From the NCBI RefSeq assembly GCF_014529625.1, contig NZ_CP076039.1:3534001-3598000 (forward strand): a DNA stretch of 64,000 nt, written 5' to 3'. Positions 34,050 through 59,850 of this stretch are shown here, in pieces. Every line of letters begins with the position of its first letter. The first letter of the stretch is position 1. The notes under the pieces are model-generated. The model was given only the letters and a program-made list of their open reading frames with translations. It did no database searches and was not told the DNA's origin. This stretch comes from Candidatus Pelagisphaera phototrophica (lineage in GTDB: Bacteria; Verrucomicrobiota; Verrucomicrobiia; Opitutales; Opitutaceae). Both the position numbers and the translations under genes were made by a program.

Positions 34050-35849
34050 TCATGCTAAAACAAAGTCGCCATGCAATTGTGCATAAACTCCTTTGGCGGC
34101 CAGCAAATCGCTATGGGACCCTGCTTCCACCAATTCTCCCTGATCAAGGACGAATATCCGGTCAGCGATTCGGGCAACATTAAGGCGATGGGCAATGAAG
34201 ATGCTGGTGCGGCCATCGATCAAGCGAGAAAGAGCTGCCTGAATTCTAGCTTCGGTCATCACATCAACTGAGCTTGTCGCTTCATCCAAAATCAGGATAC
34301 GGGGATCGCACAACATCGCCCTTGCGAAGCAAACAATCTGCCGTTGACCGTTCGACAAGTTCTTCCCATTCTCTCCCACTTTCGTATCCAAGCCCTCGGG
34401 CAAGGATTCCAAGATATCGCGCGAGTCCAATTGATCGATCGCCCAATGAACTAAATCCGCGGTCGCAGCTGGCGATCCCAGCTTGATATTATCTGTCACG
34501 GATCCATCGAATAAAAAGGCTTGCTGCGTTACAATGCCGAAATGCTTCCTCAATGCCAGACCGTGCATTTCCACTGTAGAGATCCCATCGATTTCTAGAC
34601 TGCCACTCGTGGGCAGATAGTGCTTGCTGATCAAATTGGCCAACGTGCTCTTGCCGGATCCCGTATGACCGACGAGGGCTACCGTTTCTCTAGGTTCGAT
34701 GCGAAAATCGATACCCTTGAGCACCGGTTTTCCATCCAGATAGCTGAAGCTGAGGTCCTTGGCCTCAATCGATCCCTTCAGAGATGCCAGCCTAACGAGC
34801 TTAGGTGTCTCTTTCCAATCGGGCTCTTTGTCGAGGAGTTGAAATACCCGTTCTGCTCCCGCCACCGAGGCCAGTGCTTGAGTGTAGATGCGTCCGATGT
34901 TCTGGACGGGCATAAAGAAATAGTTCGCCAGAAAAAAGAAGGCAATGAAATCATCCACACTGGAATCAAAGCTTCCCGTTAAGGTGCCGTAGGACCCCAC
35001 AGCTAAGAGCAGAGCAAGAAATCCCTGAGTATTGAATTCGAGCAAAGGAAGATAGATTGCCGTATTTCTAGCGAGATTCTGGTTATTGGCAGCGTGGTCC
35101 TGAATGAGCGTTTCAAATTCGTCGGCCGTCGGTCTTTCCCGAGCAAAACTTTGAATAATCTTCATTCCGTTAACTGCCTCGGCAACTTTGCTCGTCAATC
35201 GGCTTTGGCTAAGCTGCGTTTGACGGGACCAATGGGATAGTTTGCCGCGGAAATAGATATTGATTCCGTAAATTACCGGGGCCACCACTAGCACGATGCA
35301 AAACAATGCCGGGTTGTAGATGAACATGAAAACGCTCGAAACCAGCATTTGCCCGACCAGCATCAAACCGAAAAAGAATACCACGTGGACGCCTCGACGC
35401 ATATTTTCGATGTCCGAAATATAGCGACTCAGCAAGCTACCCACTTTCGTCTTGGTGTAGAATCCCAGCGAAAACGTTTGCAGCTTTTCGAACAGGCCAT
35501 TGCGCAAGCCCTGAGCCACTCGCTCCCCTAGTTGCTGCGAGGCCAGCATGCGATAACTGAAGGTCACCTCTGTCACGATCGCCAGAATGACAAACACTCC
35601 AGACCACAAAATAACCCCTTGAAAGTCCTTCGAGGCAATAGGTCCATTGATAACGTGCCCTATAAGCACCCCTTGCATAGGACGGAGGATAGATCGAGCC
35701 GCCGATAGGGCCAGACAGAGGTCGCGCAGCCTCGAATGGGGTCGCATGTAGGAGAAGATTCGGAATATCAGTTTAAGGTCTAGACGACGCTCTTCTGATT
35801 TAATTCCGGCCCCAATGGGGTCGCCACCTGTTGCCTTGACGAAACTCAT
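34050..35849 (-). CDS. ABC exporter half-transporter with canonical Walker B, noncanonical signature
   Basis: 599 residues: six-helix exporter membrane domain (about 50-330) fused to an ATPase domain. Walker A GHTGSGKST, Walker B ILILDEATS with the catalytic Glu, His switch IAHR, but the signature reads LSNGQ instead of LSGGQ. It overlaps the upstream half-transporter by 4 bp (ATGA). This division of defects between the two halves matches heterodimeric exporters of the TM287/288 and BmrCD kind, which export drugs or lipids with one degenerate ATP site. Substrate unknown. Confidence 0.93.
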   Translation of the reverse strand: MSFVKATGGDPIGAGIKSEERRLDLKLIFRIFSYMRPHSRLRDLCLALSAARSILRPMQGVLIGHVINGPIASKDFQGVILWSGVFVILAIVTEVTFSYRMLASQQLGERVAQGLRNGLFEKLQTFSLGFYTKTKVGSLLSRYISDIENMRRGVHVVFFFGLMLVGQMLVSSVFMFIYNPALFCIVLVVAPVIYGINIYFRGKLSHWSRQTQLSQSRLTSKVAEAVNGMKIIQSFARERPTADEFETLIQDHAANNQNLARNTAIYLPLLEFNTQGFLALLLAVGSYGTLTGSFDSSVDDFIAFFFLANYFFMPVQNIGRIYTQALASVAGAERVFQLLDKEPDWKETPKLVRLASLKGSIEAKDLSFSYLDGKPVLKGIDFRIEPRETVALVGHTGSGKSTLANLISKHYLPTSGSLEIDGISTVEMHGLALRKHFGIVTQQAFLFDGSVTDNIKLGSPAATADLVHWAIDQLDSRDILESLPEGLDTKVGENGKNLSNGQRQIVCFARAMLCDPRILILDEATSSVDVMTEARIQAALSRLIDGRTSIFIAHRLNVARIADRIFVLDQGELVEAGSHSDLLAAKGVYAQLHGDFVLA

Positions 35850-37783
35850 ACGGTTACCTCTCGATCGAGCAAGGATCCAAACTGGGTTGCCACCATTTCC
35901 GAATAAGCTCCGGATTGACCCATCAGTTCATCGTGGGCGCCAATCTCGACGATACGGCCTTCCTTCATAACGATAATGCGATCGGCTCGGGCCAATGTGG
36001 ATACGCGATGAGCCACGATGAAAGTCGTCTTTTCCGACATCTCGTTTTTAAGTCCGTCGAAAATGCGCTTTTCCGTTCTGGGATCGATGGCTGAAGTCGG
36101 ATCGTCTAAGAGCAGAATCTTCGGATCTGGCAATAATGCTCTGGCAATACTAAGACGCTGCCTTTGCCCTCCAGACAGGTCGACTCCCATCTCTCCGATA
36201 ATTGTATCGTATCCATTTTCCAAATCTACAATAAACTCGTTTGCGCAAGCGATCTTCGCTGCCTTAACCACTAGTTCCATTGGAGCCTCAGCATTGCCGA
36301 ATCGTATGTTTTCGGCTATCGACTGGCTGAATATAAACGCATCTTGAAAAACGACTCCAACATTTCTTCGCAAGCATTGAAGATCTAGTCTTCGAGCGTC
36401 TACGCCACTAACGGAAACAATCCCTCGATCCGGATCATAAAGTCTCGGAATCAAGTTCAATAAAGAGCTCTTGCCCGCTGCAGTCTCACCAGCCAAGGCC
36501 ACGATTTCACCGGGTTCCACCTCGAAATCAACCTCAGAAAGAGCGTTTCTAGTTTCATTGTAGGAAACCGTAACGCGATCAAAGCGCACCCGTCCGGTAA
36601 ACGGTTGAGGTGTCAGCGGATTATCTGGCTGTTGCACTGAAGGCTCGGTATTCAAAATATCATGCAACCTCCTGGCCCCTGTAAGGCTTTCTTGAGTGGC
36701 ATTAGCAATCTGAGCCACGTTGGCTATGCGGTTGGCGAACTGCTGGAGCAGTCCAGCGAAAACGACGAATCCAGCTCCCAGCGCCAATTGCCCGGAGATC
36801 ACTAAGTGTCCGCCGTAGATGATTAGGGCGAACAGACTGGCGTGCGACAAAAGGTTGATACTCGGACCGAAGAGACTGATGCTACGGAATATACGGCTCT
36901 GGCATTCCCAAATATCCTTATTCATATTCCTCATTCTGTCGATTGCTTGATCTTCAACAGAGAATCCACGGATAACTTCGGCCCCTCTGATGGCTTCCGA
37001 CAAATAGAGTATCATTCGGTCGAACGCTTCACGGTAGGAAATGAACAGCGGGCGCGTGGTCTGAGAAAAAGCGAGTGACCTCAAAGCCATTAGCGGCACG
37101 AAAATCATGCAAGCAAGAGCCAGTAGGCTGTGTATCTTATACATGAATACTACGTAGATAGAGACGGTAATTATAAGCGTAATCGCTTCCATCAAGGCCA
37201 AGTCCACGAACGACCGAACTGCTTGGATATCTCCAGTAGCCCGATTGATCATAGCCCCGCTTGGCTGCTTGGAATAGAATCGCATGCAGCCTTCCTGGAG
37301 CTTGCCGAATACTTGGCGCTGCAACTGCGGGGCCAATTTCCCGTGCACAAGCTTGGCAGTGGAAGCGGCCGCTCCATAAAAGAGAAGCCCGTGGGCAACA
37401 GCGGAAAGCAACGCTACGCTGGACAGCAAAAGAATCACTTCCATCGGCGTCCAGCCTGCAGGTGGTTGCCAGCCCAGTGGCCAGGCAGGACCAGCCTCAC
37501 GCATGCCAGACACGAAGGCCAGGTAATCGATTCCCAGGCCAACTACATTCAATCCGAAAACCGCAAACAATGTTAAGGCAACTTGGAGAATCGCAGCCAA
37601 GGCGAACAATCTTCTGAATTGCCAGCAAAGGCTTAGCATCCAGCGAGTCAGTAATAGGTTTCCGACGTCGCCACTAGCATTGGTTCCCGGTCTTAGAATT
37701 TCCTTAAGTTTGTTTTCGATAATAGAGATCCCAATTCTCTCGCCCTTATAGAGCAAACTTCGTTGAGCGACCGAGGCCGACAA
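35846..37783 (-). CDS. ABC exporter half-transporter with degenerate catalytic Glu
   Basis: 645 residues: six TM helices (about 55-350) plus ATPase domain with Walker A GETAAGKSS, consensus signature LSGGQRQ and Walker B LLLDDPTSA, where the catalytic Glu is replaced by Asp. Together with the partner gene's LSNGQ this forms one inactive composite site, while the other site is canonical. Translationally coupled to the downstream half. It lies next to phnM but with its own start and a 54-bp gap, so a link to phosphonates is not implied. Confidence 0.93.
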   Translation of the reverse strand: MSASVAQRSLLYKGERIGISIIENKLKEILRPGTNASGDVGNLLLTRWMLSLCWQFRRLFALAAILQVALTLFAVFGLNVVGLGIDYLAFVSGMREAGPAWPLGWQPPAGWTPMEVILLLSSVALLSAVAHGLLFYGAAASTAKLVHGKLAPQLQRQVFGKLQEGCMRFYSKQPSGAMINRATGDIQAVRSFVDLALMEAITLIITVSIYVVFMYKIHSLLALACMIFVPLMALRSLAFSQTTRPLFISYREAFDRMILYLSEAIRGAEVIRGFSVEDQAIDRMRNMNKDIWECQSRIFRSISLFGPSINLLSHASLFALIIYGGHLVISGQLALGAGFVVFAGLLQQFANRIANVAQIANATQESLTGARRLHDILNTEPSVQQPDNPLTPQPFTGRVRFDRVTVSYNETRNALSEVDFEVEPGEIVALAGETAAGKSSLLNLIPRLYDPDRGIVSVSGVDARRLDLQCLRRNVGVVFQDAFIFSQSIAENIRFGNAEAPMELVVKAAKIACANEFIVDLENGYDTIIGEMGVDLSGGQRQRLSIARALLPDPKILLLDDPTSAIDPRTEKRIFDGLKNEMSEKTTFIVAHRVSTLARADRIIVMKEGRIVEIGAHDELMGQSGAYSEMVATQFGSLLDREVTV

Positions 37784-37837: not shown

Positions 37838-38998
37838 CTAAACCAATGCTGGATCCGGACTTTTCATAGAAATTTTGGATACGCCATCTACCCAAACTTC
37901 CTCGACACGACCGTAGGTTTTCATTGGTTCGAAAAGCGTGAGATCGGCGACTTTGCCAACTTCAATACTTCCGAGCCGCTCTTCCCAACCTAGAACCTTC
38001 GCCGGCCCGAGCGTTATCAAATTAACAGCTCGACTCGGATCCATCCCTTGATCGATCATCTTAACGACGCTACCTAACATTGAGGGAAAATGGTAATCGC
38101 TACAAAGCGAGTCGACGAGGTCTTCACTCAAGGCATCGATACAGGACAGATTGCCGCAATGCGACCCACCACGATAATAATTGGGAGCGCCCATACAAAC
38201 ATACATGCCAAGATCCTTGGCCCTTCGAGCTGCTTCCATGGTAGTAGGCATCTCCGCCAAAGTCGCTCCCGCCTCCTTGGCCTCATCCACGTGATCGACC
38301 GTCGTGTCGTCATGGCTCCCTATACACACTTTTCCGGAGAATTTGTCCCGAACTTCAACGCGATTGTTGATGGCACTATTCGCTTCTATTCTCTCTTTGA
38401 GCTGCCTCATAGCTTCCTCCACAGTGAGACCCTTCGACGCTGCTTGCTTGACCGCGATTTCCTCGAGACTCCGAAATTGCCGTTGCCCTGGAATATTCTC
38501 GTTGTACACGATATTACCCAGTGTCGAGTAGTCCGCCAATTGATCGACAATAACGCTGGCTGGCTCGAAATTCGTGTCCCACCGGATGTGCATAAAATGG
38601 CGAACGGAAGAGATTCGAGCCATACGCTCATACTCATCCGCCAAAGCCAAGCCCGATCGAGCACGCAACTCTCCACCCTTTTTCCAAGGGTCATTCGAGA
38701 TGCGAACAGCTCCCAAAACGGTGGTTAGACCCGAGGCGAGCGCTCGCAAATCCATCATGTGGAACGCCAACTCTATGGGGAAGCCCGCACTCGGCCGCGG
38801 GTGCAATTCCTTCTCTATATAATCCGTATGAATATCGATTACCCCCGGAATAAGCCAATGCCCATGAGCATCGTATTCTCCTGGATAATACGAATCCTTC
38901 TTAATGTCCGCGATTTTGCCTTCTTCGACGATAACGGATCCCTCTACGAGACCAGAGGGAGTCACTATCTTGGCATTCGTTACGATTTGCTGATTCAT
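37838..38998 (-). CDS. phnM: Phosphonate metabolism hydrolase PhnM
   Basis: Amidohydrolase that removes diphosphate from ribosylated-phosphonate 5-triphosphate, giving the monophosphate used by the C-P lyase core. 386 residues, TIM barrel with the metal motif IDIHTDYIEKEL near residue 55 and later PTTMEAA, GAPNYYRGGSHCGN and the final GWEERLGSIEVGKVADL. Length as in E. coli. Last gene of the phn operon, 2 bp after the phnE copy. Confidence 0.95.
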   Translation of the reverse strand: MNQQIVTNAKIVTPSGLVEGSVIVEEGKIADIKKDSYYPGEYDAHGHWLIPGVIDIHTDYIEKELHPRPSAGFPIELAFHMMDLRALASGLTTVLGAVRISNDPWKKGGELRARSGLALADEYERMARISSVRHFMHIRWDTNFEPASVIVDQLADYSTLGNIVYNENIPGQRQFRSLEEIAVKQAASKGLTVEEAMRQLKERIEANSAINNRVEVRDKFSGKVCIGSHDDTTVDHVDEAKEAGATLAEMPTTMEAARRAKDLGMYVCMGAPNYYRGGSHCGNLSCIDALSEDLVDSLCSDYHFPSMLGSVVKMIDQGMDPSRAVNLITLGPAKVLGWEERLGSIEVGKVADLTLFEPMKTYGRVEEVWVDGVSKISMKSPDPALV

Positions 38999-39000
38999 AA

Positions 39001-39828
39001 TTACTTCAAAGTATTGCTGCCTAACATTTTTCGTCTCAAATAATCAGATACACGTTCCATGCTGGCTATTAGGACTATGATAAAGATCACCAAGGCTAGC
39101 ATGTTCTTGTAATTCAGTGTCTTTTGAGCGAGATGCAGCTGCATCCCAACTCCCCCGCCTCCATACACACCCAATACGATCGCTTGCCGCAAATTGATAT
39201 CGAAGGAGTAAAACCAACTGGAAATGAACGAAGGCATGGCTGCCGGAATGATGGCGTAACGGATTCTCTGGAAGCCAGTGGCTCCTATCGCTTCCAGAGA
39301 TTCAATCGGACCTCGATCCACATTCTCGATCGATTCCGCGAACAGTTTGCCGAACATCCCAATCGATCCGATAATCAAAGCTAGAGCGGCGCTGAATGGC
39401 CCAATTCCCACAGCCACTTGAAAAACGAGCATCGTGACCAGCTGAGGAATCGAGCGTTCAATTGCGAATAGTGTTCGAGTGGTTTTCGCGACGATCGGGC
39501 GAGGTGTCGTATTAGAGGCTGCCAGGAAAGCTAGCATAAACGCCAAGAGCCCGCCAAATAGAGACCCAAGAAAGGCCATCGCTATGGTTTCCCCGATCGA
39601 ATCGAACAGGTTCCTCTGCTGAACAAAGATCATCATGTTCGGGGGAGCCATTCTCTCTACTAAATCGACGATCTGACCGAACTCGTAAATGATCTTCAAC
39701 GGATCGAATCCCAAAGCTATGGATACACCCGAAAATATCACTGCGAACCCTAGGCAGTAAGTAGCATTCCGACGAAATTTCTTCGAAGGAAGCTCGTAGT
39801 CAACGACTGGCTGGTGAGACTCTCCCAA
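39001..39828 (-). CDS. phnE: Phosphonate ABC transporter permease PhnE, second copy
   Basis: Inner-membrane channel of the PhnCDE importer. 275 residues with about six hydrophobic helices; the permease EAA-type loop reads ESLEAIGATGFQRIRYAIIPAA. It is paired with the first PhnE copy, 2 bp apart; two unlike PhnE proteins probably form a heterodimer, as in several other phosphonate importers. Confidence 0.93.
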   Translation of the reverse strand: MGESHQPVVDYELPSKKFRRNATYCLGFAVIFSGVSIALGFDPLKIIYEFGQIVDLVERMAPPNMMIFVQQRNLFDSIGETIAMAFLGSLFGGLLAFMLAFLAASNTTPRPIVAKTTRTLFAIERSIPQLVTMLVFQVAVGIGPFSAALALIIGSIGMFGKLFAESIENVDRGPIESLEAIGATGFQRIRYAIIPAAMPSFISSWFYSFDINLRQAIVLGVYGGGGVGMQLHLAQKTLNYKNMLALVIFIIVLIASMERVSDYLRRKMLGSNTLK

Positions 39829-39830
39829 TG

Positions 39831-40628
39831 CTATAGCCTCTCTTTCGTCAGTATTTTTCCCCTAGCGAAATTGGATACCCGCTCCGAAAGATTTACGAGC
39901 ACCATAATCATCATGATTGCTACCGTGGCTCTCTGATAATCTACAACGGCAATCGCCCTTATAAGTTCATAACCAATTCCAACACCGGCTACGCCACCCA
40001 ATACGGTTGCCGCTCTGATATTTACTTCAAACCGAAATATGGAGTTGGCGATCAGCGAAGGTAGCACATCGGGAATTACCGTGTAACGTATCACTTGCCA
40101 ATAGCTAGCCCCAGACGCCTTCAAGGCTTCAAGGCGGCGTTCTTCCACTTCCTCAATCGCGTCCGCTAATAATTTCCCCAACATGCCCACACTCCCGATT
40201 GCGATCGCTATGACAGCCGGAAAAAGGCCGATATCCAAAGCCTTTATCAACATGATTAATACAATGATTTCCGGGAGGGCACGCTCTAAGCCCAGAGCCA
40301 CGCGGGCAAATGGACGTAAAAGTTTGCTTGATACATTCGAGGCTGCTGCTAACCCAATCCCGATCGATATTATAACCGCAATAGGCGTGGCCAGCATGGA
40401 TATTAGTACTGTGATAGCAGACTGATTTAGCATCGTCATGGTGACCGTCCAATCAGGCGGAAAAAAAATGTTAAGCCGGGAAAACCCGTCAACAATCCCG
40501 AAGGTCAGGGCACCAAGATCGAATTCACAAAGGACCGCCGCCGCGTATACGCAGATGGTTAGCCCACCCATCGGCAGGATGAGTTTAAAATAGCGCTTGG
40601 GGCTATAAGTGGCCAGAATCGATTTCAC
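39831..40628 (-). CDS. phnE: Phosphonate ABC transporter permease PhnE, first copy
   Basis: 265 residues, about six TM helices, with the permease loop RRLEALKASGASYWQVIRY and the C-terminal LGGVAGVGIGYELI that contacts the ATPase. It differs clearly from the second copy at the sequence level, so the duplication is old. Follows phnC by 9 bp. Confidence 0.93.
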   Translation of the reverse strand: MKSILATYSPKRYFKLILPMGGLTICVYAAAVLCEFDLGALTFGIVDGFSRLNIFFPPDWTVTMTMLNQSAITVLISMLATPIAVIISIGIGLAAASNVSSKLLRPFARVALGLERALPEIIVLIMLIKALDIGLFPAVIAIAIGSVGMLGKLLADAIEEVEERRLEALKASGASYWQVIRYTVIPDVLPSLIANSIFRFEVNIRAATVLGGVAGVGIGYELIRAIAVVDYQRATVAIMMIMVLVNLSERVSNFARGKILTKERL

Positions 40629-40637
40629 GCTAGAAGC

Positions 40638-41468
40638 TCAACTGAGATTAGTTATTGGGCTTGCCTGAATGGGCACCTGCTCCTCCGTGAAATCGCCACC
40701 CTGCCTGTTAGACAGTACTTCATCAAGCTCGTCTCCGTATACTTCCGCTAAATCCGATTCAGTCAGATCCGGTTTGCCGTCGTAGACAACTTCCCCGCCT
40801 CGAATCGCAACAACGCGTGTACAATATTTGCGGGTTATTTCTGGCTGATGGAAAACTCCAAGAACCGGTGTTTCTTTTGCCAAGGGCAATAAGAGTTTCA
40901 TGATCGCCTTGGCATTTTTTGGATCCAAGCTAGAAATCGGCTCGTCTGCCAAATAGATGGAAGGCCTTTGGAACATTGCCCTCGCTATGGCAACCCGCTG
41001 CTTCTCGCCGCCGCTTAGGCTACCCGCTCTGCGCGAAGCGAAGCCTTGCATGCCGACTTTGGAGAGCACCTTTAGAGCTTCTTCCGCTTCTTTGTCAGTA
41101 AATCCGTAAATCAAACTCCTGAGGGGACTTATCGCACCCAGACGGCCAACCATAACGTTTTCCAGAACGGATAACCTATGCACCAAATTGAACCCTTGGA
41201 AAATCACTCCCACATGTCGCCTTGCATTGCGAGCCTCCTTGCCTTTGGCCTGGTCCAAATTACAGCAACTTCCATCGGGACACCTAAATCGAACGGTTCC
41301 TTTTTCCGCCCTTGTGAGGCCGAGAATGCAACGCAACGTAAGCGATTTTCCGGCACCGCTCGGACCAAGAACGCCTACAAACTCGCCTTTCTGGATCTTA
41401 AAAGTCACGCCCTTGAGCAACTCTTTGCCGTTCGGCAATATTTTCTTAAGATTCGCAACTTCTAACAT
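40638..41468 (-). CDS. phnC: Phosphonate ABC transporter ATPase PhnC
   Basis: ATP-driven import subunit, 276 residues. Walker A GPSGAGKS, signature LSGGEKQR, Walker B IYLADEPIS, and the H-loop FHQPE. Follows phnD by 8 bp. The C-terminal 30 residues extend beyond the usual domain end. Confidence 0.95.
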   Translation of the reverse strand: MLEVANLKKILPNGKELLKGVTFKIQKGEFVGVLGPSGAGKSLTLRCILGLTRAEKGTVRFRCPDGSCCNLDQAKGKEARNARRHVGVIFQGFNLVHRLSVLENVMVGRLGAISPLRSLIYGFTDKEAEEALKVLSKVGMQGFASRRAGSLSGGEKQRVAIARAMFQRPSIYLADEPISSLDPKNAKAIMKLLLPLAKETPVLGVFHQPEITRKYCTRVVAIRGGEVVYDGKPDLTESDLAEVYGDELDEVLSNRQGGDFTEEQVPIQASPITNLS

Positions 41469-41476
41469 AGTTCATC

Positions 41477-42409
41477 CTAGTCCGATAGTAGTTGCATCTG
41501 ATCCATGTTTCTGGCGATGTCTCGGTAATAGTCATAAGCGGTATCGTCGCCTCGATAGAATATGGGATTGTCAGATATGTATATCGACGAAACTAGAGCC
41601 CAAGTATCTGGAGCATCATTATGCATATTGATAAAAGCATCTTGAATGGATTGTTTGAAGTCGCTCGGCAGATCCCCGCGCACCGCGAACGGTCCCGTGG
41701 GCATCCACTCTGATTTCCAAAGGACTCTGAACTCGCTCTCCTCAATCGTGCCACGCTCGACTAGGCGTGCCAAGGTAGTAGATGATATTGCGGCCACATC
41801 CACTTTTCCCGCAAGGGCAGTCATTATGTTGGCCGTGTGGCTCATGGAATAGACGACTTTTCCAAAAACCACCTCAGGCTTCACTCCGATCGAGTCGAAA
41901 TACCCTCTCGGAACTAAGTGGCCTGATGTAGAAGCTGGATCATTAAAACTGAACGTTAGTGATTTCGATTTTTCCAAAACGTCGTCCATGCTATTAAGAC
42001 CGCTGGATGGCGAGGTTATCAAGTAGGACTGATAAGCCCCGTGACGAGACTCTTCCGTTCCTATAATAACCAGTGGCTCGGCGTCCGCCTTTTCGTGAGC
42101 GATCAAATAGCTAAATGAACCGAACTGACATATATCGATCTTCTTGGATCTCATCGCTTCAATGGCTATGCTGTAGGATCCTGTCTTCGTGATCTCCACG
42201 TCTATGTTTAGCGTTTTCCCGAGATACTGCGCCAAAGCATTATAGATTTCTTTGCGAGACATCCGTTGGGTTTCTTCCTCAGGCGGGTTGTGTCCTATTC
42301 GTAGAACCGTGGGCCACCCTCTTTCATCAACGGTGAAATTCGACCCGTTGGGCTGACAACCAGATAGGGCTACAGCGGCAAGCAGAGTTACTGTAATCCA
42401 GTATTTCAA
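41477..42409 (-). CDS. phnD: Phosphonate-binding lipoprotein PhnD
   Basis: Substrate-binding protein that captures phosphonates for PhnCEE. 310 residues. The signal ends LSGC, a lipobox, so it is a membrane-anchored lipoprotein rather than a free periplasmic protein. The two-lobe fold shows family pieces such as QFGSFSYLIAH and the GHLVPRGYFDSIG hinge. It lies 23 bp after phnL. Confidence 0.93.
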   Translation of the reverse strand: MKYWITVTLLAAVALSGCQPNGSNFTVDERGWPTVLRIGHNPPEEETQRMSRKEIYNALAQYLGKTLNIDVEITKTGSYSIAIEAMRSKKIDICQFGSFSYLIAHEKADAEPLVIIGTEESRHGAYQSYLITSPSSGLNSMDDVLEKSKSLTFSFNDPASTSGHLVPRGYFDSIGVKPEVVFGKVVYSMSHTANIMTALAGKVDVAAISSTTLARLVERGTIEESEFRVLWKSEWMPTGPFAVRGDLPSDFKQSIQDAFINMHNDAPDTWALVSSIYISDNPIFYRGDDTAYDYYRDIARNMDQMQLLSD

Positions 42410-42432: not shown

Positions 42433-43152
42433 TTATGCGGTCGCGACTTCGACTTCTTCGATGCGGCCGCTTTTGAGCTTAAGTTCCCGATCAGCCAGGT
42501 TGCTTAGCGTATACTCATCGTGAGTAATCAAGATAATCGAAGTACCGCGCCTCTTCAGATCCAGAATCTTGCCGATGACGACATCCTTTGTTTTCTGATC
42601 GAGGGACGCGGTCGGCTCGTCGATCAGCAGAAATCTGGGAGTGGATATAATGGCTTGGGCCACATTAATCCGCTGCTGCTCTCCACCGGAGAATGTGGAT
42701 GGATACGCGTCCCAAAGCTCTTGTGGCAGTCCAAGTTCCTCCAAGAACGATCGAGCTTTTTCGAGAGCTTCATCGCGGTCTACGTTTTCCTTAATCAGCT
42801 GTTCCGCGACAATCTCTACTGCCGGAACTCTAGGTATCACCTGTAGAAACTGAGAGCAGTAGGTCATCTCGTTTCTTCGAATTGCAAGAATTTCGTGCTC
42901 GCTCGCTTTAGCCAAATCGATCTCCCCGTAGAAGCCCGAATGGTATAAGATCTCGCCCTCGTTAATTAGATAAGTTCCGTACAAGCACTTCATCAAGCTC
43001 GACTTTCCCGAGCCGGACTTGCCGGTTAATCCGATAATTTCGCCTTTAGCCATGGTGAAACTAATATCCTCCAAGGCATCAATTTTCTTATCGTTCAATA
43101 TGTGCAGAAGAAACTTCTTCTTCAGACCCCGAATCTCTAGCAAGTTTTCCAT
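42433..43152 (-). CDS. phnL: C-P lyase subunit PhnL, ABC-type ATPase
   Basis: ABC-type ATPase of the C-P lyase complex, needed with PhnGHI for ribosylation of the phosphonate. 239 residues: Walker A GKSGSGKSS, signature FSGGEQQR, Walker B FLLIDEPTA, H-loop ITHDE. Downstream of phnK by 18 bp. No membrane domain, as expected for PhnK/PhnL. Confidence 0.94.
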   Translation of the reverse strand: MENLLEIRGLKKKFLLHILNDKKIDALEDISFTMAKGEIIGLTGKSGSGKSSLMKCLYGTYLINEGEILYHSGFYGEIDLAKASEHEILAIRRNEMTYCSQFLQVIPRVPAVEIVAEQLIKENVDRDEALEKARSFLEELGLPQELWDAYPSTFSGGEQQRINVAQAIISTPRFLLIDEPTASLDQKTKDVVIGKILDLKRRGTSIILITHDEYTLSNLADRELKLKSGRIEEVEVATA

Positions 43153-43170: not shown

Positions 43171-44022
43171 TTAAAGCAGACTGCTTACTAGCAGCTGCGT
43201 GTATTCATGTTGTGGATCTTGAAGAATCTGATCAGTCAATCCCGCCTCTACGATCCGACCATCCTTCATTACCATGGTGCGATCCGTCAGCATCCGTATT
43301 ACGCTTAGGTCGTGAGACACGACTATCATCGAGATGCCTAGCTGCCTTTGTAGACCCCTAATCAAATCGAGGACTCTGGCTTGAACGGAAACGTCTAAAC
43401 CGGTAGTGACTTCATCTAAGAATAGCAGCGGGGGATTATTGGCGATAGCTTTCGATATTTGAACCCGCTGCTGCATCCCACCAGAGAACGAGCCTGGGGT
43501 ATTATCCATACGAGGCAAAGGCACTTCAGTGCGCTCAAGAAGATCGCTAGCTCGCTCACGAATCCGCCCAACGTGGAATTCCCCCGCCATCAAAAGCTTC
43601 TCGGCGATATTGCCACCCCCTGAGAATTTAAAATTCAGGCCGTCTCGCGGGTTCTGGTATACCATTCCCATCAAATGATTCCGAATGTATCGCTTCTTCT
43701 GATTAGACACGTTAAGTAGATTCGTATTACCATCGTTGAATCCACGGAACCGAACATCCCCTCCAGACGCTTCATTATCGAAATAAAGCAGTTGAACGAT
43801 CGTGCTCTTGCCCGATCCGCTTTCCCCGACAACGCCTAAGACTTCTCCCGGATAAAGATCGAAATCAATTTCCGCACACGCTACAATGGCATCAGTCTCA
43901 GGGCATTGGTTGGTCCCGAATTTCGGACCGGTGTAGTTAATTGTATTGGAAATGGGGTCACCATATATTTTCGTGAGTCCCCTAACCCGAAGGAGCCAAT
44001 CTTCCGTTTTATTCTTAACCAT
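43171..44022 (-). CDS. phnK: C-P lyase subunit PhnK, ABC-type ATPase
   Basis: ATPase that docks on the PhnGHIJ core. 283 residues, longer than E. coli PhnK because of an insertion before Walker A (about residues 20-48). Walker A GESGSGKST, signature FSGGMQQR, Walker B LLFLDEVTTG, H-loop VSHDL. Oligopeptide-ABC style C-terminus. It starts 14 bp after phnJ. Confidence 0.94.
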   Translation of the reverse strand: MVKNKTEDWLLRVRGLTKIYGDPISNTINYTGPKFGTNQCPETDAIVACAEIDFDLYPGEVLGVVGESGSGKSTIVQLLYFDNEASGGDVRFRGFNDGNTNLLNVSNQKKRYIRNHLMGMVYQNPRDGLNFKFSGGGNIAEKLLMAGEFHVGRIRERASDLLERTEVPLPRMDNTPGSFSGGMQQRVQISKAIANNPPLLFLDEVTTGLDVSVQARVLDLIRGLQRQLGISMIVVSHDLSVIRMLTDRTMVMKDGRIVEAGLTDQILQDPQHEYTQLLVSSLL

Positions 44023-44036
44023 CTTTAGTTGTCTCT

Positions 44037-44951
44037 CTACTCTGCTGGGTTCGTGAACAATCGCTGATCAGGCCGAGGGCCCTCGCGCAGCTTGTCGAGA
44101 AAGTTACTGTCATTAATAACATGTTTGCGACTGCTTTCAGATTCGTAGATTTCATCCATAAAAGCTCGGTCCTCGCCTGTAACTGAGCATCGTATACCTT
44201 CAAACTCTTCTACGCGGAATTTAATATCTTCAAACTCTAGAGGCTCTACGGTAGTGTGAGGGGGAACGCAGTGTATCCGCTTTTCCCGTCCCGCAGCAAA
44301 AACATGCAGCGTCTTGCTATCACTGAGATTAGGAACATCCCATCGGGGAATGGGTGACGGCGTCATAATGTAGCGGTTGTTTACCTTCACCGGGTAGCCA
44401 GCGCCACGCATGATCGCACCAAACTTGACATAGGATTCGTACAAGGAAACCCACATTTTAGCATAGTCCGCCTCCGCGTGCATCTGCCTAGTCTTGAATT
44501 CGTAACGTTCGACTCCTCTCAAAATTTCAGGCTGAGGAACCTGGAAAACAATGATCTGACTCTCCGTCAGTACCTCCTCGGGAAGCCGGTGCCGCGTCTG
44601 GATAAGCGTCGCATCCGAGGTATGGAAGGTCGTATCACAATGAGTCATACGCTTGACAAAGTTCCTCAAGTTGCACGCGTTTACGCTAGCGTCACTACCT
44701 TGATCGATGATCTTAAAAACGTCATTGGGACCGATCATGGACAAAGTGGCATGCAATCCACCCGTCCCCCATCCCCTGGAAATCGGCATTTCCGGCGACG
44801 AATATGGAACTTGATAGCCCGGAATGGCGGCCGCTTTAAGAATCTTTCGGCGAATCTCTTTCTTGGTAGATTCGTCAACGAAAGCGTAATTATAACTTCG
44901 ACTGAATTTCTCTTGTTCGATCATCTCAAATACTTTCCTCGCTCCCCGCAA
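44037..44951 (-). CDS. phnJ: C-P lyase subunit PhnJ lacking three of four conserved cysteines
   Basis: PhnJ is the radical-SAM lyase that cleaves the C-P bond of ribosyl phosphonate 5-phosphate in the PhnGHIJ core. 304 residues, closely alignable to E. coli PhnJ over its length, including AIPGYQVP with the glycyl position (Gly45), GWGTGG, DATLIQTRHR and AGREKRI. The C-terminal cluster is altered: Cys255 is kept, but the second Cys of CxxC is Thr258, the third is Ile279 and the thiyl-Cys position is Leu285. DNA on the minus strand at about 44095-44190 confirms this; the surrounding residues align, so it is not a frameshift. Activity is doubtful or differs in mechanism. Confidence 0.93.
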   Translation of the reverse strand: MRGARKVFEMIEQEKFSRSYNYAFVDESTKKEIRRKILKAAAIPGYQVPYSSPEMPISRGWGTGGLHATLSMIGPNDVFKIIDQGSDASVNACNLRNFVKRMTHCDTTFHTSDATLIQTRHRLPEEVLTESQIIVFQVPQPEILRGVERYEFKTRQMHAEADYAKMWVSLYESYVKFGAIMRGAGYPVKVNNRYIMTPSPIPRWDVPNLSDSKTLHVFAAGREKRIHCVPPHTTVEPLEFEDIKFRVEEFEGIRCSVTGEDRAFMDEIYESESSRKHVINDSNFLDKLREGPRPDQRLFTNPAE

Positions 44952-46115
44952 TTACAGTAATTCCTGAGCGGGATCCATGGCATCTTCCTCCGCCATAGGT
45001 GTGTTCGCCGTCTTCTTTTGCTTGTCTCCGTTTCGAGAATCATCTTTCCGCTCCATCGCTTTTCTTAGGTTGTCCAGTCCGGACTGGAAGGTCACATAAT
45101 GCGGAAGCTTCAAATGGTTGGTAAATCCGTAAGACTCAACGCCCTCTGTGTGATATAAAACGAACTCCTGACTATTAGCTGGATGCTCGTCGTTCACACG
45201 CATAGTCCGATCCAATATTCCCATGCATATGGACTTCGTTTCATTATGCCCAAAGCATAGGCCGTATCCCAAGGTCATGTAAGGTACTGAATCTCTACCC
45301 TTCTTTTTCAGCTTCGAAATAACCTCGGTTTCGGTAACCTTGATGCTTCCGATACACCTGCGTCTACCACGACGGTCCCGCACATGTATCTTAGCTTTGC
45401 CTACTCGAAGTTCTCCAATTGTTGGATGGGCAGATCCAAATCCCCTCATTGACGAGTAGGCCAATGCACATAATCCGCCAGTTTCCGCTCTAGCCAACAT
45501 TTGCAGAGCCGCTGAACGGGGGGCTGGGAACTTAACCGCCTCTCTCGTAACATCCACAACTCTATTGTCTTCGTCATCATCAACCCCTTGAAGCATCCCT
45601 TGCTCCAGAAGGATATCCATGATCTTCGAAAAGGATTGCGGATCTTCGAGCAAAGTTCGGTCAAGCCCATCCACTTCATCGATGAATCGCTCGAAGTCCT
45701 CTTTGGATTCGGATGCCAGGTCAGTGTTTAGTAAGCGAACCGTGTAGTCACGCGTAGGACCGAGAATCTGTCCGCCTGGCGCTTCCCGGAAGGCCGAGGA
45801 GATTCGGCGGGAAACTCGCATCGCTCTTGTATCAATAATGTCCGAGTAGTAGACCCGGTTGAGGGTCGCCCGATAGGCTCTCAAAATGAAAGCCCCCTCA
45901 AGCGGGCAACCTTGAACTTGCTTCAAGGCCAAGGCTGCGTGCTCAGGCGCATACAGTGAGCCCTCGCCCATTATCTTGTCCACCAAAGCACTTAGCTGCG
46001 TCTTAATCTGCTCTATTTCCAGCGGGGTGGTACGCGAGCAAACTCTTTCGTATTCAACTAGACGAGACGCATTTTCTATCGCGTCTTCTCCGCCCTTTAT
46101 AGCTACATATCCCAT
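44952..46115 (-). CDS. phnI: C-P lyase subunit PhnI
   Basis: Core subunit with nucleosidase activity that, with PhnG, H and L, attaches ribose triphosphate to the phosphonate. 387 residues, longer than E. coli PhnI (354) through a charged C-terminal tail. Conserved: MGYVAIKGG start, LGPTRDYT, RGFG-HP, and HLKLPH with His334 and His339 at the PhnI-PhnJ interface, both intact. It abuts phnJ directly (stop 44952, start 44951). Confidence 0.95.
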   Translation of the reverse strand: MGYVAIKGGEDAIENASRLVEYERVCSRTTPLEIEQIKTQLSALVDKIMGEGSLYAPEHAALALKQVQGCPLEGAFILRAYRATLNRVYYSDIIDTRAMRVSRRISSAFREAPGGQILGPTRDYTVRLLNTDLASESKEDFERFIDEVDGLDRTLLEDPQSFSKIMDILLEQGMLQGVDDDEDNRVVDVTREAVKFPAPRSAALQMLARAETGGLCALAYSSMRGFGSAHPTIGELRVGKAKIHVRDRRGRRRCIGSIKVTETEVISKLKKKGRDSVPYMTLGYGLCFGHNETKSICMGILDRTMRVNDEHPANSQEFVLYHTEGVESYGFTNHLKLPHYVTFQSGLDNLRKAMERKDDSRNGDKQKKTANTPMAEEDAMDPAQELL

Positions 46116-46130
46116 AAGTACGTTCCTTTA

Positions 46131-46739
46131 CTAAATTGGGTGGATGCGGGAGCTCCTTGGTATGCAGGCTACCTTTTGCTCACCCGGTTCGCTGTCGCTA
46201 ACGAGTATGAGATCAACACCGAGTGGGAACTCCGAGTTTTTTGCCCTCAACGCCTCTATCCATTCGAGCCCCAGTCCTCTAACGTGAAGTTCCATTACTC
46301 CATCGATCCCTGGACCTTCCAATCTAATACCTTGAAATCCATCTGCCTGTTCGTCCTCGAATCCCTTCGTTTGCAAAATAATAGTCGCTCCCTCCTCGGG
46401 ATACGTGAGTAAACCTTCTTTGACCAGTCTCACGAGATCAGGCGACTCGTCCTCGTCGACAATAATAAAATCGGCTTCTTCCAGATCGGCTGACCGGCTG
46501 CCCGTATTGACTTTCAAAAATTCTTCACTGGCGGGATTCCCTCGAGCCATGTAGAATGACACGTCCTGATTGAGAAGAGACAAGCATACAGCCGTGGTCG
46601 CACTCAATAGGCTTTGCGGCGGCTCAAAACCCAACCGCTTGAGATCGTTTATCTTCCCCGGCCTCGCCATCGAATCGAGGATCGATCGAAAGTGACATTG
46701 GGAATCGAATACTTCGTCGTAAGCTGCTTCGCGAACCAT
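46131..46739 (-). CDS. phnH: C-P lyase subunit PhnH
   Basis: Structural core subunit with a PLP-transferase-like fold but no cofactor site. 202 residues; conserved ILDSMARPG near residue 20, LEGPGI, FPLGVDLIL and CIPRSSRI at the C-terminus. It lies 1 bp after phnG and 15 bp before phnI, so tightly co-translated. Confidence 0.93.
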   Translation of the reverse strand: MVREAAYDEVFDSQCHFRSILDSMARPGKINDLKRLGFEPPQSLLSATTAVCLSLLNQDVSFYMARGNPASEEFLKVNTGSRSADLEEADFIIVDEDESPDLVRLVKEGLLTYPEEGATIILQTKGFEDEQADGFQGIRLEGPGIDGVMELHVRGLGLEWIEALRAKNSEFPLGVDLILVSDSEPGEQKVACIPRSSRIHPI

Positions 46740-46740
46740 A

Positions 46741-47160
46741 TCAGTCTTCCTCCATCAACTTGAAATCTACTCGAGTCTGTAGAGATCTAGCATACTCCTC
46801 TTTTTCTGACTGATGAACAGCCTCCGACTGCCCGTCGAGAAACTCCTTTATACGCCGATCGTCGGATGCACATCTTACAAGTGCATCCATAACTGCGATA
46901 CAATATCCTCTAACCGGCTCTTCTCCTATGCAAAGCCCATATCCCGCTTCACCTTGGACTTCTACTTCGCATTCCGTGGTCAATACCTCTCCCAGATAGA
47001 ACTCCTGCTTTTCAAGAGAATCCTCTGCCCGCACCATTGTGAGACAGACGTCAGGAGATTTAACTACTCTGACGGGATAGTCTTTTTCGATTTCTTCAAC
47101 GAAGCCCTTCAGAGGTTCTAATGGGCACTCACACATTACGTAGTCGGCGTCGTATTTCAT
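46741..47160 (-). CDS. phnG: C-P lyase subunit PhnG
   Basis: First gene of the operon; subunit forming the PhnG2H2I2J2 core. 139 residues. Recognised by FYLGEVLTTECEVEVQG and the following GEEPVRGYCIAVMDAL helix, plus position. Cys content is unusually high for the family (six). Upstream are two palindromes in a 120-bp leader. Confidence 0.88.
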   Translation of the reverse strand: MKYDADYVMCECPLEPLKGFVEEIEKDYPVRVVKSPDVCLTMVRAEDSLEKQEFYLGEVLTTECEVEVQGEAGYGLCIGEEPVRGYCIAVMDALVRCASDDRRIKEFLDGQSEAVHQSEKEEYARSLQTRVDFKLMEED

Positions 47161-52065: not shown

Positions 52066-52878
52066 ATGAAAAAACCGCCCTTCGTAGGAGCCGCAATTAG
52101 GAGTGAGAACCTATCTAGCATTCTTGATTGGATCCTAGAAGACAATCGCGATCTGGAAATTCAGGATGCATGCCTTCCCGGATTCCTGGATTCGGACTGG
52201 AAAGCCATTTCAGAGCGTATCAACAAGCAGTTGGAGAACTATGACGGCAGAATTGGCATTCACGGCCAGTATGACGGCATCCAATTAGGAACCGGGGATC
52301 CACTCGCGCGCGAGCACGCTCAGAAACGCATTTCCCAGAGCCTTGATTTCGCCGCCTCGATCAATGCAAAGGCCTGCGTGATACACAGCCCATTCTATTT
52401 TTTTGGAGGAGGCCAAACCTGCCACACGCCTCAACTAGACTTAGGTTTCACTCTCGATCGTGTTTCCCAAACGCTGGAGCCCTTGATTACGCTCGCGGAG
52501 GAGAGCGATTGCATACTGGTAGTGGAAAATATTTTCGATCGCAGCCCGTTGCCTCTCAGGGCTCTGATTGAACGATTCGATAGTCCCTACCTGAGACGCA
52601 GCATCGATACGGGGCACGCCGCCATTACCGAACGCTGCGGCGGTGGACCTAGTCCCGAATATTGGATTCTCGAAGCGGGCGAGCTATTAAGCCATATCCA
52701 TCTCCAGGATACAAACGGGGAGTATGACTACCACTGGACCTTGGGGAACGGCACGCTGAATTGGAAAGGGATTTTTCAATCGATCGATAACATCGACGCC
52801 ACTCCTCGACTGATAATCGAGACCAGCGATCCAATGAGGGGCTGGAATTACCTTAAACGAGAAGGTTTGGTGTGCTAA
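52066..52878 (+). CDS. Sugar phosphate isomerase/epimerase-like TIM-barrel protein
   Basis: 270 residues of the xylose-isomerase-like / AP-endonuclease-2 superfamily. Metal-ligand pieces: IGIHGQYDG, VIHSPFYFF, VVENIFDR (Glu), SIDTGHA (Asp, His), HIHLQDTNG and a final LIIETSD. Not specifically endonuclease IV, which is longer with more His. Reaction unknown. It diverges from the metallophosphoesterase operon; the GNAT gene follows after 37 bp. Confidence 0.85.
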   Translation: MKKPPFVGAAIRSENLSSILDWILEDNRDLEIQDACLPGFLDSDWKAISERINKQLENYDGRIGIHGQYDGIQLGTGDPLAREHAQKRISQSLDFAASINAKACVIHSPFYFFGGGQTCHTPQLDLGFTLDRVSQTLEPLITLAEESDCILVVENIFDRSPLPLRALIERFDSPYLRRSIDTGHAAITERCGGGPSPEYWILEAGELLSHIHLQDTNGEYDYHWTLGNGTLNWKGIFQSIDNIDATPRLIIETSDPMRGWNYLKREGLVC

Positions 52879-53515: not shown

Positions 53516-54898
53516 CTACATCCCTTCCCGATTATAAGGCATGGTATTCTCGAATAGTCTTTCCTCACCGAGATCCGGCGCCCAATCGAGCAAGGTCTTG
53601 GAGCTATCCTCATTTTTTCTCAGCTCGAATGCGTCGTACAATTCGCCGTTTGCCATGTAAGCCTTATAGACTAAACTCATTCCTTCAACACGGATGACCT
53701 GAAAAAATTGAGTATTCTCCGCCTTGCGGTCCAAAAGGACGCCTTCCGGTCGATAAACGTCCCAACCACCTTCCATAAATTCGTACATTTTGGGGCCACT
53801 GACAGAATTTACATATATCGGACCTGTTCGCGGCGATTCGTTTGTATCCATCATTCGGATTGGAACGTGTCCTCTCGCATAAGTATGGTCATGGCCTTGC
53901 AATACGAGATCGACGTCATGCTTTTCGATTACCGGCTTCCACGCTTCCCGATTTCGGGAGTTGTCCCGACCATCTCCTGAGGAGAAGATCGGGTGGTGGA
54001 AAGTAAGAACCGTCCATCGATTTGGATTATCGTTTAATACTTTATCGAGCCAACCTGTTTGGGCGTCGATTTCACTATTGGAATTCAAAGCGACAACTCG
54101 GACACCTTGGAAGTCGATATAGTAGACCGTTTCATCTAGAGCACCCGGTAACTCGCGATAACGTGGCAACTCGAATTGCGGCCCCCACTGCAAGGAAAGC
54201 CGCCTTTCCTGCTCAGCTTCCGTAAGCTCATCGTACTCATGATTCCCTGGAACGACAATGCTGGGAATCATTCCATGCACCCATCCGCCTGCCTTGAACC
54301 ATTCGGCCCATTCACGATCCCGATGGGCTCGATTGATCAAATCGCCTGCGTGGATCGAAAAGTTGGCGTTCGGTGACTTTTGGAACGCGGCCCGCATGAT
54401 TCTAGACCAATGAGAAAGGACCGAGTTTTGGGCGTCTCCAAAATAAAGAAATTCTACCGGATCCAATCTAGAACTCGCTGTGCGAAATTGCATCCATTCG
54501 CTCCAACGCTGATCTCCATCTCCAACTCGATAGGCATATAGGGCGTCTGCATGAAGTCCCTTGAACACGACACTGTGGTAGTGAACCGTAACGGATTCGT
54601 TCTGGTCATGCCTCGAGATGTCAAGTTCTTGGGTCTTCGCCCTAAAACGCTCAGCGGACAGATCAAAGCGGGAAGAGGGATCCGCCACCGCTATTTCAGC
54701 GAAAGCGGTTTTGACTGAGTCATTGGTTCTCCAGGTAACCGCTTGGGTTCTCGCCGGATCGTCGTTCCAGGTTAGGACGATTCGATCCGGATCCGGGCTG
54801 GCGATTTCCCAATGACGCATAGTATCGCCATCATGACTATAGGTAGCCATCTGGGCAAAAATCGAAAGAAGAGCTACTGTTAGAATTCGTTTGTTCAT
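53516..54898 (-). CDS. Secreted purple-acid-phosphatase-like metallophosphoesterase
   Basis: About 460 residues from the ATG at 54898, which begins the signal peptide MNKRILTVALLSIFAQ; an in-frame upstream Met would mask it. Fibronectin-III-like N-terminal domain (about 35-140), then the PAP metal motifs FGDAQ, GDLINR, PGNHEYD, FHHPIF and GHDHTYAR, all intact. Probably releases phosphate from organic phosphoesters in the periplasm. Neighbouring PhoR/PhoB suggest phosphate-starvation control. Confidence 0.9.
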   Translation of the reverse strand: MNKRILTVALLSIFAQMATYSHDGDTMRHWEIASPDPDRIVLTWNDDPARTQAVTWRTNDSVKTAFAEIAVADPSSRFDLSAERFRAKTQELDISRHDQNESVTVHYHSVVFKGLHADALYAYRVGDGDQRWSEWMQFRTASSRLDPVEFLYFGDAQNSVLSHWSRIMRAAFQKSPNANFSIHAGDLINRAHRDREWAEWFKAGGWVHGMIPSIVVPGNHEYDELTEAEQERRLSLQWGPQFELPRYRELPGALDETVYYIDFQGVRVVALNSNSEIDAQTGWLDKVLNDNPNRWTVLTFHHPIFSSGDGRDNSRNREAWKPVIEKHDVDLVLQGHDHTYARGHVPIRMMDTNESPRTGPIYVNSVSGPKMYEFMEGGWDVYRPEGVLLDRKAENTQFFQVIRVEGMSLVYKAYMANGELYDAFELRKNEDSSKTLLDWAPDLGEERLFENTMPYNREGM

Positions 54899-54956
54899 CT
54901 CATATTCGCGTTTTATACAGACAAATTGATAGGCCATTTAAGGTATGGCGACATCG

Positions 54957-55889
54957 TTAATCAATCGGCACGAACTCGAGCTGATCTACACGAGTTAGTT
55001 CATCAAATTCAACTTTGTAAATCTCGGCATCGGCCTCGTCCGCCAAAAGAATAGTATCTCGACCATCAAAGCAAACAGCTTCCACCTGAGTGGCGGCGAA
55101 TGGCATCCAGTATATTTTGCCGCGGAAATACATATCCGTCGCTCCGTCTATTTCGAACACCCAAAGAGCATCGTAAGTGGTCACAGCCAACCTTCTGCCA
55201 TCGATCGAGGCGTCAGCAGCAGTAGTTTTGCCTCCAAAATCAAATGCGTCTACATAGGTAAGCGTGTTTGTCTGGTAAGGATTAGCCGTGTCTAAGCGGT
55301 ACAGTTTCCCCAAGGTGTCACTCCGGTTCTTCGAAACGAGGTAAACCTTATCCCTTACGCAAAATACGCCTTCGCAATCGTAGTTGAAATCACTTTGATC
55401 CGATGGGTAGAGAGCTTGATCAGGATATTTCAAAAACACTTTCTTTTGGTACGTGGTCCTGCCTGCGTGTGGGGATGGCTCCGGCAAATAGTAGAGCACG
55501 AGATCGCGTCGATCGTTACGATTATTGCCAACATCGCAAACAATCAGATTACCCAGATCATCAACTGCAATATCCTCCCAATCCACATTGACGGCTCCAC
55601 CAATCAATACACCAGGATCATCCGAATAGCGTGCAGACCCCCAGAGACGTCCATCACTGAGCACTGGATACACTTTGGGGGCGTCGCCGGAATCGTTAAT
55701 GGTCCAGAAGAGATCGTCACGAGACCGACTCCTGACAATTCCCGAGTTTTCGATACTGGCTCCAGGCCCGAATTTTCCGATCGCTTCCAGCTTAATGGGA
55801 GCGATATCGGGCAATTCCGGCATGCTAACAGGCTCCGCGATACCAGTCGAAGTTGAGAGTAAAGACAGATATGCAACTAGACGCAACAT
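54957..55889 (-). CDS. Secreted propeller-like protein of unknown function
   Basis: About 310 residues from the ATG at 55889, which gives a signal peptide (MLRLVAYLSLLSTS) and avoids overlapping phoR; longer in-frame starts exist at 55913 and 56021. The sequence repeats beta-sheet blades with motifs such as FWTINDSGDAPKVY, VDWEDIAVDDLGNL and YDCEGVFCVRDKVYLVSKN. Resembles secreted propellers often annotated as phytase-like esterases, but I see no catalytic residues. Located between phoR and the phosphatase gene, so a role in phosphoester use is an inference. Confidence 0.65.
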   Translation of the reverse strand: MLRLVAYLSLLSTSTGIAEPVSMPELPDIAPIKLEAIGKFGPGASIENSGIVRSRSRDDLFWTINDSGDAPKVYPVLSDGRLWGSARYSDDPGVLIGGAVNVDWEDIAVDDLGNLIVCDVGNNRNDRRDLVLYYLPEPSPHAGRTTYQKKVFLKYPDQALYPSDQSDFNYDCEGVFCVRDKVYLVSKNRSDTLGKLYRLDTANPYQTNTLTYVDAFDFGGKTTAADASIDGRRLAVTTYDALWVFEIDGATDMYFRGKIYWMPFAATQVEAVCFDGRDTILLADEADAEIYKVEFDELTRVDQLEFVPID

Positions 55890-55962
55890 CCTCCGATCCT
55901 TACACACATTCATTAAACTCGGATGAAGCCTTCGAAAATTTCGTGCGCCATAATTTGGCAAA

Positions 55963-57774: not shown

Positions 57775-57860
57775 TAATTCGAATATCGACGGTAGGAGGC
57801 TTTGTTCAATCTGTTAGTATTACTATATCTATTACGGATACAATAAATTAGTCAATACGC

Positions 57861-58568: not shown

Positions 58569-58822
58569 TTTCAAGCTATAGAGCGACGACCACCTTATTG
58601 CAATCAGCCTAATGCTACATAAACGCGCCAATTTTGCGCGGATTTCGTGCTAGCGGGTAAATCAATTCGAAGGCCGCTTTACAGTCTTTAAATTGGCTTA
58701 ATAAAAACGTCGCGCAATCGTTTCCAGCCCCGCTTGAAGTCGTGCCATACTTTCGAATGATTTTTTTTAGTGACCTTGTTTTCGCTGGGTTACAAGATAA
58801 TGCACAGCTTCGCCAAGACAAG

Positions 58823-59521: not shown

Positions 59522-59850
59522 CAAATCTAGCGGGCCGCCTGTCCGTTTTCCGGAAGCGGCTGGAAGAATGGAAATTGCCCGCAATTTGAATATGTTCTGG
59601 CGAACCTGCCTTTCGAAGGTCGAGAGAAACTTTACGCCGTCTATTCAATGTGAATCTAGCCCCAGCAAGGGCTTTGAGCATCTAAGACAGTGTCTAATCA
59701 GTTGCAATGAGTTCACTAAAGAGTGTGGCTGACTGGGGACACATTCAGCGCTACCAATCTAAAAGCACACACAAAAAGCCCGGCTTGCGAGAAGCCGGGC
59801 TTTGTGACTATTCAGGTTCTATTTTAATAAACGCTTACCCAAACTAAATT
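59522..59850. other. 330-bp convergent spacer
   Basis: No gene seen. Holds the terminator for the TonB-dependent receptor gene. Confidence 0.6.
59773..59806 (-). terminator. Strong terminator after the TonB-dependent receptor
   Basis: On the minus strand AAAGCCCGGCTT, loop CTCGC, AAGCCGGGCTTT then a T run (TTTTTGTG). Twelve-base stem; on the plus strand it also has a short T run, so it may serve the response-regulator gene too. Confidence 0.9.

Follow-up and report, generated by a model that had tools for sequence, protein, structure and literature searches.

In this study, we show that the PhnJ protein encoded in the window, a stretch of 64,000 nucleotides from the genome of Candidatus Pelagisphaera phototrophica, has the family and fold of PhnJ but is without two features that define the radical-SAM C-P lyase, the ligands of the [4Fe-4S] cluster and the thiyl cysteine. 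Taking sequence, phylogeny, selection, gene context and predicted fold together, from which catalytic activity, product and absence of the cluster are all deduced, it seems fairly probable that this protein belongs to a working C-P lyase core complex that represents a distinct and widespread subtype and would still yield ribose 1,2-cyclic phosphate without the [4Fe-4S]/thiyl machinery of PhnJ. The mechanism of C-P cleavage is unsettled, and a deep lineage that is without the cluster and thiyl residues and keeps the product site offers a natural test case for it: either the Cys-depleted enzymes have a different way of cutting the bond, or the mechanism given in textbooks has to be revised. Moreover, the four conserved cysteines served as a check on PhnJ in a 2025 study (PMC11978286), and because that study takes them to distinguish a functional PhnJ, our findings bear on methane release from methylphosphonate.

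The phnJ gene and its operon

The phnGHIJKLM gene set of the window is complete, with PhnGHI, PhnKL, PhnDCEE and PhnM in one operon-like run. The features are as follows.

46741-47160, minus strand: phnG (Pfam PF06754)
46131-46739, minus strand: phnH (Pfam PF05845; TIGR03292 over cut-off)
44952-46115, minus strand: phnI, metal-binding HLKLPH (His328/His333) intact (Pfam PF05861, 427 bits; alignment)
44037-44951, minus strand: phnJ, Cys-depleted (Pfam PF06007; E. coli alignment; single copy in the genome)
44187-44189, minus strand: Cys255 codon TGC (E. coli C241), sole cysteine kept of the four (codon read directly)
44178-44180, minus strand: Thr258 codon ACA, replacing C244 (codon read directly; E. 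coli alignment)
44115-44117, minus strand: Ile279 codon ATT, replacing C266 (codon read directly; E. coli alignment)
44097-44099, minus strand: Leu285 codon CTC, replacing C272, the proposed thiyl cysteine (codon read directly; alignment)
43171-44022, minus strand: phnK, zinc-ribbon cysteines lost (CxxC..CxxC replaced, residual CPET)
42433-43152, minus strand: phnL (Pfam ABC_tran; conserved neighbour)
41477-42409, minus strand: phnD, phosphonate-binding protein (Pfam PF12974, 185 bits)
40638-41468, minus strand: phnC, transporter ATPase
39831-40628, minus strand: phnE1, permease
39001-39828, minus strand: phnE2, permease
37838-38998, minus strand: phnM, ribosyl-phosphonate triphosphate diphosphatase (NF011990 and NF011984 over cut-off)

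Read from TTG, phnJ encodes 304 amino acids, and from the ATG at 44922-44924 it encodes 295; the ATG, which has an AGGAAAG motif upstream, is the likelier start. The match of the protein to PF06007 is full length (401.6 bits against a cut-off of 25, profile positions 2-273 of 275), and its alignment with E. coli PhnJ (4xb6_D/7z15_D) spans 268 residues with an E value of 1e-88. In this alignment C255 is equivalent to E. coli C241, T258 to C244, I279 to C266 and L285 to C272, so that the CX2CX21C ligand positions of the [4Fe-4S] cluster (C241, C244, C266) read C, T and I and the feature is absent, as is the thiyl-radical cysteine C272, replaced by Leu285. The glycyl radical site Gly32 is present as a residue, which speaks for the sequence and not for the radical. 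The retention of Cys255 with Thr258, Ile279 and Leu285 at the expected cysteine positions, as given in the original prediction, is therefore borne out by both the codons and the alignment. Returning ACA, ATT and CTC to a cysteine codon would take three, two and two base changes, seven in total. The presence of a second, normal PhnJ was rejected, since the search suggested with the original prediction found only this one PhnJ in the window's own genome (4.09 Mb, one contig).

None of the NCBIfam curated models gave a PhnJ match at E 0.001 for 44037-44951, and PhnK (243.5 of 302.85 bits) and PhnG (85.3 of 89) both fell under their cut-offs. Because the curated models miss these variants, annotation may under-call Cys-depleted phn operons.

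PhnG, H, I, K, L and M had also been described as intact; all of them, and the PhnCDEE transporter, are full-length, but the zinc-ribbon cysteines of PhnK are gone as well. The CxxC..CxxC ribbon of PhnK was found in 74 of 83 canonical systems versus 0 of 35 Cys-depleted ones, counts that represent only one or two events because of phylogenetic non-independence. In the first of the two Cys-depleted clades described below (clade A) the ribbon segment remains in degenerate form, usually as CP[E/V/N/K/D]T, and in the second (clade B) it is missing. The link between the PhnK ribbon and the PhnJ cysteines is one-way, since the ribbon is also missing from E. coli and from a small number of other canonical systems.

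phnM is followed at 34050-37783 of the window by a pair of ABC exporter half-transporters of 599 and 645 aa. Large ABC ORFs similar to these are also found on the flanks of phn operons at several loci from Opitutales and Acidobacteriota, for example L015, L016, L017, L019, L025, L026 and L031. A xylose-isomerase-like TIM barrel (PF01261) lies at 52066-52878; its relatives are found in the vicinity of phn genes in the two Cys-depleted clades alike (L016, L017, L152, L153, L160, L173) and in 0 of 52 canonical loci. The region 53516-63153, between the phn operon and phnN, encodes a purple-acid-phosphatase-like protein together with a PhoR-like kinase, a pair of response regulators and a receptor of the TonB type, and resembles a phosphate-starvation island.

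Spread, origin and conservation of Cys-depleted PhnJ

A comparison set of 130 PhnJs, 39 of them distinct Cys-depleted and 91 canonical sequences, was drawn from a GTDB genome scan, phylum and family surveys, and plasmid matches. The Cys-depleted proteins are hosted by Verrucomicrobiota, Acidobacteriota, Bacteroidota, Chloroflexota, Deinococcota and Alphaproteobacteria. Within the window's own family PhnJ is present in 8 of 200 genomes surveyed and Cys-depleted in all eight, and it is Cys-depleted as well in L010, from another family of the same order. Thus the suspicion that the Thr/Ile/Leu pattern might be a clade trait proved correct, with a spread far wider than Opitutia. The L010 gene (L010:1501-2310) has an in-frame TAG where its relatives have a Trp codon. 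Among Bacteroidota the hosts include the isolates Mucilaginibacter oryzae DSM 19975 and M. endophyticus; in Chloroflexota 9 of the 27 PhnJ-bearing genomes surveyed are Cys-depleted; the deinococcal example lies on plasmid pVV8 of Thermus thermophilus HB8; and the Alphaproteobacteria are represented by Haematobacter, Nitratireductor, Rhizobium, Sinorhizobium and Mesorhizobium. The lineage thus includes a thermophile used as a laboratory strain, T. thermophilus HB8, and cultured Mucilaginibacter. These named hosts are largely aerobic lineages, which would suit an oxygen-tolerant PhnJ variant and proves nothing. Fifteen Cys-depleted genomes searched held no second PhnJ; an exception to this pattern is Haematobacter massiliensis, whose plasmid NZ_CP035515.1 (L174/L179) carries one canonical and one Cys-depleted PhnJ together and is a natural comparison of both types. 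The open-access literature searched yielded no description of the Cys-depleted clade, and prior notice elsewhere is possible.

The cysteines may have been lost once or twice. In an earlier tree without Thermus and Alphaproteobacteria the two Cys-depleted clades were joined (97/90), and a single origin seemed supported; this support did not persist after the two groups were added. In the fuller tree, which was built without the C-terminal domain, clade A (Opitutales, Acidobacteriota, Bacteroidota; support 100/100) and clade B (Thermus, Chloroflexota, Alphaproteobacteria; support 100/98) were joined in 24% of bootstraps, with an AU p of 0.51. Either one ancient loss has spread widely, or two separate losses removed the same three cysteines and each time spared C241.

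G32, R107, Q124, C241 and D268 are invariant in 130/130 PhnJs, and all four cysteines are 100% conserved in the 91 canonical ones. In the 39 Cys-depleted proteins, position 244 is Thr or Ser (Cys in one), 266 is Ile, Leu, Val or Met, and 272 is Leu, Met, Ala, Gly or Val. In a slightly smaller set, columns 244, 266 and 272 were the only strongly canonical-conserved ones to be fully exchanged; at the other exchanged columns listed, the canonical residue is retained in part of the Cys-depleted set. One PhnJ from Bryobacteraceae, an acidobacterial family (L020:2551-3474), keeps C241 and C244 as CxxC and has Ile at 266 and Leu at 272, and its sequence might represent an intermediate or a partial reversal. 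Between close pairs whose synonymous sites are unsaturated, dN/dS is 0.02-0.11, indicating strong purifying selection. These values, together with the 39 distinct relatives and the seven base changes, confirm the earlier impression that the replaced residues are conserved in pattern and not decayed. A replacement cluster formed from new cysteines (a NAC..C pair in the N-terminal half) was considered and rejected as a general solution, because the pair is conserved in clade A alone, its second Cys is lost in some members of that clade (L029, L140), and it is absent from Chloroflexota.

The residues around the product site are kept. In E. coli, the modelled product PRcP and the zinc are contacted by PhnJ residues 47-50, R107, H108 and Q124 and by PhnI H328/H333 (PMC9947105). 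G47, W48, G49, T50, R107, H108 and Q124 are found in 39/39 Cys-depleted PhnJs, and PhnI H328/H333 in 36/36 Cys-depleted systems. The AlphaFold model of the window PhnJ (pLDDT 84) superimposes on E. coli 7z19_D with a Z score of 38.0 and an rmsd of 1.5 over 271 residues (VIA-align), and its C-terminal domain is predicted to be ordered (block pLDDT about 86-90).

Proposed cleavage without the cluster and its alternatives

In E. coli, PhnN phosphorylates the ribose 1,5-bisphosphate formed from PRcP. The window's genome encodes a PhnN 1.75 kb past the window edge (G000:C1:3599749-3600276; 222 bits, cut-off 156), and PhnN over cut-off occurs in 6 of 7 PhnJ-bearing versus 0 of 113 PhnJ-lacking Opitutaceae (Fisher p 2e-9). 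It is also close to the Cys-depleted operons of Mucilaginibacter, and a Cys-depleted operon of Mesorhizobium ends in phnM-DUF1045-phnN. No PhnN over cut-off was detected in the acidobacterial and Chloroflexota genomes tested, and the PhnN argument for cleavage is weaker in these groups for that reason. The second cluster that holds phnN in the window's genome comprises a phnM paralogue, a phosphonate-operon-type acetyltransferase, a second PhnD and, at L151:6505-7305 (about G000:C1:3602504-3603304), a 266-aa protein. Adjoining phnN, just past the right edge of the window, is a PhnI paralogue (L151:2570-3721, equal to G000:C1:3598569-3599720) with H328 changed to S, H333 to N and H219 kept; with no recognised phnG, phnH or phnJ beside it and counterparts in L155, L156 and L157, it would be a pseudo-PhnI.

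PhnP over cut-off was absent from the 23 genomes searched, which, like the missing PhnN matches, weighs against the downstream route in part of these lineages. The 266-aa protein has no Pfam match above cut-off and belongs to a family with two invariant HxT motifs that is present in 11 of 30 Cys-depleted versus 0 of 52 canonical neighbourhoods. Its model is predicted to adopt a 2H phosphoesterase fold, and among the cyclic phosphodiesterases that it matches is the Appr>p enzyme of Arabidopsis, an ADP-ribose 1'',2''-cyclic phosphate phosphodiesterase that opens a ribose 1,2-cyclic phosphate. The protein lies beside the phnM paralogue in the window's genome and after phnM in Bacteroidota, and is a candidate substitute for PhnP. 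The PhnN and 2H-fold/DUF1045 context suggests that the product continues to be ribose 1,2-cyclic phosphate, which would mean that the C-P bond is broken.

We therefore propose the following pathway. PhnG/H/I/L and PhnM would make 5-phosphoribosyl 1-phosphonate as in E. coli, and this substrate would be held at the PhnI/PhnJ His-metal site, where the ligand-contacting residues are all kept and where the C-P bond would be broken to give 5-phosphoribosyl 1,2-cyclic phosphate. The cyclic phosphate would then be opened, in one clade probably by the 2H phosphodiesterase replacing PhnP, and PhnN would make PRPP. Cleavage would proceed without the PhnJ [4Fe-4S] cluster and thiyl cysteine, and the domain in which these once lay may now be a metal-free, hydrophobically packed module that holds the invariant C241. 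Candidate chemistries are a polar or an oxygen-dependent reaction at the metal, or a Gly32 radical started another way. With the cluster and thiyl residues deleted and the product site untouched, catalysis at the His-metal site without the cluster appears to be the best explanation. In E. coli structures the cluster site is about 30 Å from Gly32 and Gly32 about 31 Å from the zinc (open state), distances that already make the accepted radical relay hard to place. Against the cluster-free reading, E. coli PhnJ reportedly needs these cysteines. Moreover, methylphosphonate is unlikely on chemical grounds to be cleaved in a purely polar way, because alkyl carbanions are poor leaving groups. It is conceivable, though we are doubtful, that there is a whole class of natural C-P lyases in which unactivated C-P bonds are cut at the His-metal site by cluster-free, metal-centred and possibly oxygen-using chemistry; if so, C-P lyase chemistry would not be inherently radical-SAM, and there would be an oxygen-tolerant route from methylphosphonate to methane.

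Other explanations have to be weighed against this one. The four-Cys site may have a structural, metal-binding role in every C-P lyase, with both types sharing His-metal-site chemistry and the loss resembling that of a zinc ribbon. The 30 Å between cluster site and Gly32, the disappearance of the PhnK ribbon in the same lineages and the predicted persistence of the domain fold without ligands would fit such a view; we consider it unlikely, given that the four cysteines never vary among the canonical PhnJs and that in vitro work on E. coli PhnJ, as cited in PMC11978286, ties them to SAM-dependent cleavage. It is also quite improbable that the Gly32 glycyl radical is still used, with a separate radical-SAM activase generating it in trans and some other residue serving as the relay. 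Gly32 is indeed invariant, but it is buried and may be conserved for structural reasons, the thiyl cysteine is missing, and a radical-SAM partner gene next door was rejected after no CX3CX2C ORF was found in 30 Cys-depleted neighbourhoods, a search confined to adjacent genes.

We hold it decidedly unlikely, too, that the complex no longer cuts C-P bonds and instead works on a different P-X bond, or attaches ribose to phosphonates so that they can be detoxified or exported. The loss of cluster and thiyl residues, the ABC exporter pair adjoining the operon in several clade A loci and the coexistence of both PhnJ types on the Haematobacter plasmid would favour this reading, but PhnN tracks PhnJ and the candidate cyclic phosphodiesterases sit with phnM or its paralogue, implying a ribosyl phosphate product. 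Sequence error, frameshift or pseudogene formation, to which the in-frame TAG of L010 might point, is extremely improbable: error and decay were rejected on the seven base changes required, the strong purifying selection and the 39 distinct sequences, which include those of isolates (M. oryzae DSM 19975, T. thermophilus HB8, Sinorhizobium, Mesorhizobium). The original prediction had left a choice between a changed metal site, a different C-P cleavage mechanism and ribosylation without lyase activity. The metal site must have changed, ribosylation alone is disfavoured by the PhnN and 2H-fold context, and a different cleavage mechanism would be the best reading of these options.

Comparison with known systems

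The closest reference is E. coli PhnJ (4XB6, 7Z15-7Z19), which the window protein resembles in whole-chain fold, with 49% identity, in operon partners, in Gly32, His108, Arg107 and Gln124, and in the PhnI His-metal site. It differs in that E. coli has C244, C266 and C272 where the Cys-depleted proteins have Thr/Ser, Ile/Leu/Val/Met and Leu/Met/Ala/Gly/Val, respectively. Cys-depleted systems are also unlike E. coli in having no PhnP over cut-off and, as in the window, a degenerate PhnK ribbon where E. coli PhnK has no ribbon at all. With regard to the putative PhnP substitute, the same 2H phosphoesterase-type fold as predicted for the 266-aa protein occurs in the Arabidopsis Appr>p cyclic phosphodiesterase (1FSI) and in the DUF1045 proteins of rhizobial phn operons. 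Other, distant Verrucomicrobiota with canonical PhnJ (L009, L011, L012, L013) have the phylum and the core gene order in common with the window; unlike it, they keep all four PhnJ cysteines and the PhnK CxxC..CxxC ribbon, and they are not close to the window PhnJ in the tree. The zinc-plus and zinc-minus paralogues of ribosomal proteins are a further parallel, in that the fold of a Cys4 module persists after loss of the metal ligands. By analogy, the PhnJ domain may have outlived its ligands in a similar way, with the difference that the PhnJ ligands are assigned to catalysis and that one cysteine stays invariant.
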